This document shows positions 20,060-24,123 of a stretch of DNA of 37,618 nucleotides, one piece after another. Positions within the stretch are counted from its first letter, which is position 1. The number at the start of each line of letters is the position of its first letter. Source of the stretch: an uncultured Oscillospiraceae bacterium (GTDB taxonomy: Bacteria > Bacillota > Clostridia > Oscillospirales > Oscillospiraceae); NCBI GenBank assembly GCA_950097245.1, contig CATNCS010000018.1, forward strand, positions 1 to 37,618, read 5' to 3'. Both the position numbers and the translations under genes were made by a program. The notes beneath the pieces are model-generated. The model had not been told where the DNA came from and made no database searches. It saw only the letters and a program-made list of their open reading frames with translations.

Positions 20060-20160
20060 CTCAATTCCTCCTTTTTCTCTCTTCTTATGACAGAGGACTA
20101 TTATAGAGGAATCAAATTTTTATGTCAATGGCTGATTAAACAGTTTTTTTCAGGTTCTCA

Positions 20161-23033: not shown

Positions 23034-24017
23034 ATGGAGAAGGTCGTAACCGGTGAGATACTGCCAGAGGAGACGGATAAAAAGCGCCCAAAGCTGACAA
23101 TCCCCCGGCAGATTGAATATATGCGGGATGAAAAGGGAATCAAATTCAATCTTGTGACAGAAGATTCCGCCGCAGAATTTTTAAGAAAGAATAACTATTA
23201 TTTTAAGCTGAAGGCCTTTGAGAAGAACTATGAGAAATATGCCAGCGGAGAAAACGCAGGAAAATATTTCGACCTCGAGTTTGCCTATTTGCAGGAGCTT
23301 TCAACCTTGGATATGTATTTGCGGGAACAAATTTTATCCATGACCTTAGACATTGAACATTACCTTAAAGTGCGCCTGTTAAATGATATCTCAGAGAACA
23401 ACGGCGAGGACGGCTATTCAATTGTAGAGAAGTTTTTTGCGTGCCAGCCGGATATATTGCAGGGAATCCAGGACAAACGGAAAAACTCTTACTGTGAGGA
23501 CCTGATCCGTAAATATGTGGACGCATTTGCTGTGTGGAATGTTGTGGAAATCCTTTCTTTCGGCGACTTGCTGGAGCTTTCCGCCCTCTACTATGCCACA
23601 GCGCCAAACAGGGAACCGGCCCCTAATATTGGCAATCTGCGCGTTGTGAAGTTTTTGCGGAACGCAGCCGCCCATAACAACTGCCTTATTAACAATTTAA
23701 GAGACAATTCCGGGCAGGGGTTTCCGCAGAATCGGGAAGCGAACACCTTTGTGGGCAAAATTCCGGATATCTCCAATAAAGTACGGATTAAAAAAATGGG
23801 AAACAGATTTATTCACGACTTTGTAACCATGCTCTGTTGCTTTCATACAATTGTAAGTAGTGACAAGGTAAAACAGCACCAAATGCAAAAAATAAAGGGC
23901 CTGCTGGATGGGCGGTTCACAAAGCACAGCGAATATTTTTCCAAAAATCAACTGCTTGTTTCCAATTATGAGTTTTCTAAAAAAGTGGTTGACAAATTTG
24001 CCGGGATGTGCATATAA
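23034..24017 (+). CDS. AbiD/AbiF-type abortive infection protein (Abi_2, HEPN)
   Basis: This 327-residue protein, clearly AT-rich against its roughly 60% GC neighbours, suggests transfer. The N-terminal TIPRQIEYMRDEKGIKF, AAEFLRKNNYYFKLKAFEKNYEKY is the Abi_2 signature. A central helical region with LREQILSMTLDIEHYLKVRL precedes R209-NAAA-H214-N, which fits the catalytic RX4H of HEPN ribonucleases. The family is known from lactococcal AbiD/AbiF phage-abortive systems. The start is ATG 23034 behind AAAGGAGG; a TTG eight codons upstream would place that ribosome site inside the gene. It begins 31 bases after recR and may share its transcript. A small-RNA gene overlaps its 3' end. Confidence 0.87.
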   Translation: MEKVVTGEILPEETDKKRPKLTIPRQIEYMRDEKGIKFNLVTEDSAAEFLRKNNYYFKLKAFEKNYEKYASGENAGKYFDLEFAYLQELSTLDMYLREQILSMTLDIEHYLKVRLLNDISENNGEDGYSIVEKFFACQPDILQGIQDKRKNSYCEDLIRKYVDAFAVWNVVEILSFGDLLELSALYYATAPNREPAPNIGNLRVVKFLRNAAAHNNCLINNLRDNSGQGFPQNREANTFVGKIPDISNKVRIKKMGNRFIHDFVTMLCCFHTIVSSDKVKQHQMQKIKGLLDGRFTKHSEYFSKNQLLVSNYEFSKKVVDKFAGMCI

Positions 24018-24018
24018 T
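23989..24018 (+). promoter_or_regulatory. Promoter at the end of the abi gene, driving a small RNA
   Basis: Consensus TTGACA at 23989-23994, 18 bases, perfect TATAAT at 24013-24018. The -35 lies in the last codons of the abi gene and the -10 spans its stop, so promoter and coding region overlap. Confidence 0.75.
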
Positions 24019-24024
24019 AACGGT

Positions 24025-24087
24025 GTAGCTCAAAAGGATAGTTAGGTATCCTTTCCAGGGACTGGTGCCTGCACCGGTCCCGTTTTT
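24025..24087 (+). ncRNA. Small RNA associated with the Abi_2 HEPN gene
   Basis: A predicted transcript of about 63 bases starts seven bases after a perfect -10. It has a short single-stranded 5' end (GTAGCTCA). Hairpin 1 is AAAGGATA-GTTAGG-TATCCTTT (24033-24054, eight perfect pairs), and hairpin 2 is the terminator GGGACTGGTGC-CT-GCACCGGTCCC (24058-24081) followed by GTTTTT. There is no ribosome site or ORF. The compact two-hairpin design and its location suggest a dedicated partner or antitoxin RNA for the HEPN protein; that is inference supported by what I recall of AbiF-ncRNA systems. Confidence 0.65.
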
Positions 24088-24093
24088 CTGTAA

Positions 24094-24123
24094 AAAATGC
24101 CCGGCCTGCGCCGGGCATTTTGT
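24094..24123. terminator. Bidirectional terminator
   Basis: AAAATGCCCGGC-CTGC-GCCGGGCATTTT, directly at the stop codon of the reverse-strand gene 24124-24645. Confidence 0.85.

Follow-up and report, generated by a model that had tools for sequence, protein, structure and literature searches.

This locus raises the question of whether an Abi_2-type gene that follows recR carries a small RNA of its own at its 3' end and, if so, whether the two belong with the AbiF systems, as the original prediction had it. We analyzed the locus within a stretch of 37,618 nucleotides (the window) from an uncultured Oscillospiraceae bacterium. The gene, here abi, occupies positions 23034–24017 of the forward strand and encodes a 327-residue Abi_2 family protein from its likely start, ATG 23034, which has a GGAGG 8 nt upstream; TTG 23010 is the other possible start. 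Depending on the start, the stop of recR precedes abi by 31 nt (ATG 23034) or 7 nt (TTG 23010).

The abi product covers the whole of the Pfam Abi_2 profile (PF07751, 2–184) with an E-value of 7.2e-21 and a score of 75.8 bits against the curated cut-off of 25.6. It also matches the AbiD profile of PADLOC (1.6e-21) and the phage family phrog_2158, 'abortive infection resistance protein' (2.6e-34), while an NCBIfam search with it returned no match. Each chain has only one R-x4-H motif of the HEPN type, R209-N-A-A-A-H214 counted from ATG 23034 (R217/H222 in P0001), and its sequence RNAAAH conforms to the HEPN ribonuclease active-site motif R-(N/H/D)-x3-H. Across 29 aligned relatives, R217, N218 and H222 (P0001 numbering) are invariant. 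The GC content of abi is 0.43, compared to 0.61 for the window, and just one of 733 sliding windows is equally low. The description of the locus as an AT-rich Abi_2 gene with a HEPN motif behind recR was thereby borne out. The protein is sporadic: 8 of 200 family genomes have a match, counting its own, and three genomes of the same genus in this set have none. An empty-site comparison yielded no clean empty site, the region after recR being different in five genomes, three of them of the same genus.

Across the last abi codons and the stop lies the promoter that had been claimed there, TTGACA-18-TATAAT at 23989–24018 (+), which matches the consensus in 12 of 12 positions; the 37.6 kb contain only one other perfect match, at 20128 on the minus strand. 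The small RNA predicted to start from it spans 24025–24087 (+), about 63 nt, with the first base estimated at 7 nt past the −10 box. A 5' tail of about 6–8 nt, very similar among the nearest relatives (L002, L003, L104), leads into hairpin 1 (24033–24054), which has 8 bp and a 6-nt loop and whose stem letters vary while the pairing is kept. The linker CCA (24055–24057) is unpaired in the fold, and an intrinsic terminator located by a terminator scan follows at 24058–24087, comprising the second helix of the RNA, the 10-bp hairpin 2 (24058–24081), and a U-run (24083–24087). Folding of 24024–24087 gives hairpins of 8 and 10 bp at −27.1 kcal/mol (z = −4.16), with none of 200 shuffles equally stable, so that the coordinates and the description of a two-hairpin RNA of about 63 nt were right for what is a predicted transcript. 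Taken by itself, the terminator scan of the window is at chance level (3 found, 3.4 expected), and the weight for the RNA therefore comes from the comparison with relatives. An Rfam scan, at the gathering cut-off and at E ≤ 10, yielded no plausible family; the weak Rfam matches in the window (E 0.17–7.2) are mostly terminator look-alikes. A further palindromic, terminator-like hairpin is found directly after the RNA, at 24094–24121, before a convergent ORF on the other strand.

For the comparison, an 8-row profile of the protein matched 33 of 394 genomes of the order; the close relatives stand at E < 1e-80, the other Abi_2 proteins begin only at E 3.8e-17, and no match falls in between. The close set comprises 25 loci, including that of the window, and the distant set 22 Abi_2 loci of the same order or class; counts over 23 loci leave out L069, which has masked bases, and L045, a near-copy of L020. 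A scan of viral contigs with the single abi protein found no relative, a scan with the alignment as query found 44 loci, and a further scan of genome contigs found two. A promoter matching at least 11 of 12 consensus positions lies near the abi stop in 24 of the 25 close loci, but in one of the 22 distant ones. A simple two-hairpin pattern is present in 19 of 25 close loci (in L068 elsewhere), 3 of 14 loci from Bacilli and others, and 3 of 22 distant loci, as against 3/250, 0/140 and 1/220 in the respective shuffles. Two relatives, L019 and L070, retain promoter and hairpins even though their abi frame is broken in two or interrupted by an in-frame stop.

Since MAFFT by itself was unable to align the variable stems, so that RNAalifold recovered hairpin 2 only, we used a covariance model from three loci (R1) together with iteration. 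R1 scores the window RNA at 87 bits (24028–24087), the copy in the window being part of the model. Searches of 21 of the 44 viral-contig loci, all outside the build of R1, gave ten matches with E < 1e-4, every one of them directly 3' of abi and on the same strand, in loci that had been found by protein alone. On the close loci, R1 also produced weak matches elsewhere than the RNA, from E 0.018. In 250 family genomes there were 36 matches at E ≤ 0.01, of which only three reached 87–89 bits, all beside abi; when 20 R1-matched loci were fetched, four had an Abi neighbour, which indicates that the weak R1 matches are mostly due to chance.

In an alignment of 16 sequences, which was fitted to the model and thus leans towards the structure, 98.2% of cells are paired and 13 of 18 base pairs have changed on both sides. 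Five of these are among the eight pairs of hairpin 1 (100% of cells paired) and eight among the ten of hairpin 2 (96.9%), and 57 cells have changed on both sides, whereas shuffles give 15.8 such cells and slid structures no more than 12. An arm-swap test on 23 loci, independent of this alignment but with linker positions placed by eye, gave a mean of 6.9 bp for stem 1 against 5.18 (sd 0.20, maximum 5.91, 2000 permutations) and a score of 9.1 for stem 2 against 3.7 (maximum 5.9). The constancy of the linker is no finding, since its 3 nt were imposed on the loci. A second covariance model, R2, made from the 16 loci, had 17 matches at E ≤ 0.01 in 45 held-out loci, all 17 directly 3' of abi, and none at this threshold in 25 control loci with distant Abi_2 or RF03085, where the best reached 0.012. 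At E ≤ 0.01, 28 of the 45 held-out loci had no match, although some of these showed a weaker one at the right place, amid noise. Sequence comparison thus strongly supports a conserved two-hairpin RNA beside abi, and its pairing with the gene is not a matter of chance. A covariance search had been named as one check on whether the HEPN-motif gene has a two-hairpin RNA dedicated to it, and the matches in 10/21 viral and 17/45 held-out loci answer it in favor of such an RNA.

The link between AbiF, RNA antitoxins and Cas13, which the original prediction had drawn, is established in the literature (PMC12373285, PMC12165695, PMC12737573). AbiF of Clostridioides difficile is described as toxic, and the RNA RCd22 as neutralizing it, in cis as well as in trans, by binding to it directly; the toxicity requires the motif residues R202/H207, and RCd22 is further reported to regulate the expression of abiF (PMC12373285). 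PbAbiF is described as an RNase held by its RNA (PMC12737573), AbiD/F proteins as forming one clade with the HEPN domains of Cas13an (PMC12165695), and a descent of Cas13 from AbiF has been proposed (PMC12165695, PMC12737573).

The locus resembles the pairs AbiFCd–RCd22 and PbAbiF–AbiFr (PDB 8vz6) in having an Abi_2/HEPN protein with an R-x4-H motif and a short structured RNA beside the gene, as well as in the consensus promoter and terminator on the RNA (PMC12373285). In an hhalign comparison, the close clade and canonical AbiF relatives align over 202 columns at 99.4%, with the motifs superimposed (RNAAAH with RNxCAH). Yet the AbiF RNA lies 5' of its gene and is co-transcribed with it, whereas the RNA of the window lies 3' with a predicted promoter of its own, is built of two different hairpins without the RF03085 motifs, and accompanies a protein of another deep Abi_2 lineage. 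We found no RF03085 match at the window locus, at the gathering cut-off or at E ≤ 10, and none in 20 relative loci, 9 further loci and 20 viral loci; a search of 37 genomes found the family in three, where one copy lies 28 nt before an AbiF start codon. The AbiF beside this RNA in L042 matches PbAbiF (8vz6) at 3.9e-33, while sequence searches with the window protein and its 8-row profile gave no match to 8vz6 at E ≤ 1. In a quick tree of 82 proteins, labelled by groups of loci rather than by scored RNAs, a branch with 98% SH-aLRT support parts 19 distant Abi_2 proteins, including that of L042, from 63 others, including the window protein. L043 and L044 have RF03085-like matches, just under the cut-off in L044, with no obvious Abi gene among the nearby listed ORFs; these are possibly orphan abiF RNAs.

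The window protein is therefore of the Abi_2/HEPN type, but the locus differs from the AbiF/RF03085 systems in RNA motif, in the 5' order and in protein grouping. The comparison with published AbiF–RNA pairs confirmed the protein family and the motif and failed on RNA match, RNA position and protein lineage; of the compact AbiF-type member with a 3' RNA, comparison upholds the 3' RNA and not the assignment to AbiF/RF03085. That the pair would work like AbiF is well founded by homology; that it is a member of the AbiF system is not.

AbiD1 of the Lactococcus lactis plasmid pIL105 is a further Abi_2-type protein with a short RNA beside its gene. According to PMC2661086, this RNA has 50 bases and adjoins the gene on its 5' side, unlike the 3' RNA of the window. 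In our tree, AbiD1 groups with the canonical AbiF side on a long branch. The leader before L. lactis abiD1 (L148:7290-7330) resembles the abiF RNA by eye, but cmscan gave no such match at E ≤ 1.

Another abi gene from this broad Abi_2 lineage with an RNA behind it is found in a contig labelled Staphylococcus phage (L058:1118-2632), where it is followed 10 nt on, on the same strand, by sau-5971 (RsaL, RF02397), as identified by Rfam. By eye, the other-strand ORF after the RNA is the end of rpsR, and the contig, though filed as phage, looks like Staphylococcus chromosome. PMC3386247 places RsaL/SAU-5971 between rpsR and SA0355, in the same order as L058, and annotates it as 'Highly expressed' and 'Processed from large 3'UTR of SA0355'; because the order of the parts matches, SA0355 is putatively an abi of the L058 type. 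In PMC5826253, sau-5971 is listed as a bona fide sRNA with a Northern blot. No paper tying it to an Abi protein was found in the literature searched, which covers few of the subscription journals. Like the window RNA, sau-5971 lies directly behind its gene on the same strand; it differs in its 96 nt, its separate terminator hairpin and its sequence, which is unrelated by the Rfam model, RF02397 having no match in the window or in the whole genome to which the window belongs. Bacilli relatives show another 3' RNA layout by eye, in which GGAAA and a hairpin precede GC and a longer paired segment (L052:2400-2490, L055:2395-2480, L060:2455-2545, and behind abi in L136 and L144). In L047, L048, L049, L052 and L057, which span streptococcal phages, satellite phages and a Ligilactobacillus plasmid, abi adjoins or is near an integrase gene.

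As to how the pair may work, the best reading, and in our analysis a probable one, is a type III-like toxin–antitoxin defence module with a 3' RNA antitoxin. Type III systems (ToxIN, CptIN, TenpIN) have a similar logic, an RNase toxin and a structured RNA that neutralizes it, with the RNA located 5' of the toxin gene and a toxin fold different from that of the Abi_2 protein. Antitoxin RNAs of the ToxIN type are described as tandem repeats in PMC12373285, unlike the window RNA, which is a single unit of two different hairpins of about 63 nt. In the proposed mechanism, Abi would be a HEPN ribonuclease whose cutting site forms by dimerization, and the RNA (about 24025–24087), transcribed from a strong promoter of its own at the gene end, would bind and block it in the manner of the AbiF RNAs. 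Read-through from abi would in addition append the RNA to the 3' end of the toxin mRNA. A healthy cell would hold the short RNA in excess over the toxin; should a phage shut down host transcription or degrade the RNA, the toxin would be released, RNA cut and the infection stopped. We infer the roles of RNase toxin and RNA antitoxin, the expression of the RNA in the source organism and the phage trigger.

The RNA could instead regulate other mRNAs or abi expression, acting in trans or in an antisense-like way, whether as a type I-like RNA or as an ordinary sRNA; this would be in line with sau-5971 being listed so far only as an sRNA in the sources cited and with the reported effect of RCd22 on abiF expression noted above (PMC12373285). 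We consider this unlikely. The RNA is on the strand of abi and so is no cis antisense to it; the letters of the stems vary freely while their pairing is kept, which fits binding by shape better than binding by base pairing; and all three strong matches among the 250 family genomes adjoin abi.

The hairpins might also be nothing but the terminator or 3' UTR of the abi transcript, with the promoter incidental, its TTGAC spelled by Val-Asp codons. Hairpin 2 is indeed a good terminator, the −35 box does fall within conserved C-terminal Val-Asp codons in the window and many relatives, and processing from a 3' UTR is what the annotation of sau-5971 states (PMC3386247). But the covariation extends to hairpin 1, for which a terminator has no need, and the promoter keeps its distance to this hairpin while its position relative to the abi stop ranges from −56 to +32. 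Measured from the best promoter, the gap between the end of the −10 box and hairpin 1 is 13–15 nt in 21 of 23 close loci, and 12–16 nt in all 19 viral loci with a model match, several of which are near-copies; with both sets pooled, 40 of 42 loci fall within 12–16 nt. The exceptions are L008 with 34 nt and L065 with 59 nt as scored, where by eye a weaker promoter lies at about 14 nt. In the viral set, the RNA begins anywhere between 16 nt upstream and 77 nt downstream of the abi stop. By these sequence comparisons the promoter is tied to hairpin 1 rather than to the end of the gene. This weighs against a simple 3' UTR, and we regard that explanation as quite improbable. In L017 (307-371), RNA and promoter lie inside the 3' end of the abi ORF, and the same bases may code for both.

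A guide role for the RNA, directing the HEPN nuclease to its targets in the manner of Cas13, is very improbable. Cas13 does share the HEPN active-site motif, and AbiD/F proteins are placed in one clade with the HEPN domains of Cas13an (PMC12165695). But Cas13 requires two HEPN motifs and a variable guide segment, whereas the protein here has one motif, and the short 5' tail of the RNA, alike in the nearest relatives, leaves no room for a long variable segment that could serve as a guide. We saw no CRISPR array at the window locus.

Returning to the antitoxin reading, we lean slightly towards a wider picture of two old Abi_2 lineages with different RNA partners, the RF03085 RNA of AbiF in front of the gene and the RNA of the window lineage behind it, with sau-5971 belonging to the latter as an antitoxin. 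If so, the RNA of the window lineage would have no sequence likeness to RF03085 and a promoter in or adjoining the end of the toxin gene; it would take the two-hairpin form in Clostridia and viral contigs and be differently built in Bacilli, plasmids and satellite phages. Cas13 has been proposed to descend from AbiF, and the guide RNA from the AbiF RNA; a sister lineage whose RNA is of another kind and in another place would offer an independent comparison of how RNA controls a HEPN RNase. It would also offer a partner for sau-5971, long listed as an sRNA, and the RNA model, without any Rfam family match here, is a tool for finding more such systems. RNAs 3' of Abi_2 genes may have had earlier notice in the literature. 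As a further observation from the viral contigs, L138 carries a skipping-rope RNA (RF02924) at 832-915, about 1.1 kb before its abi match.
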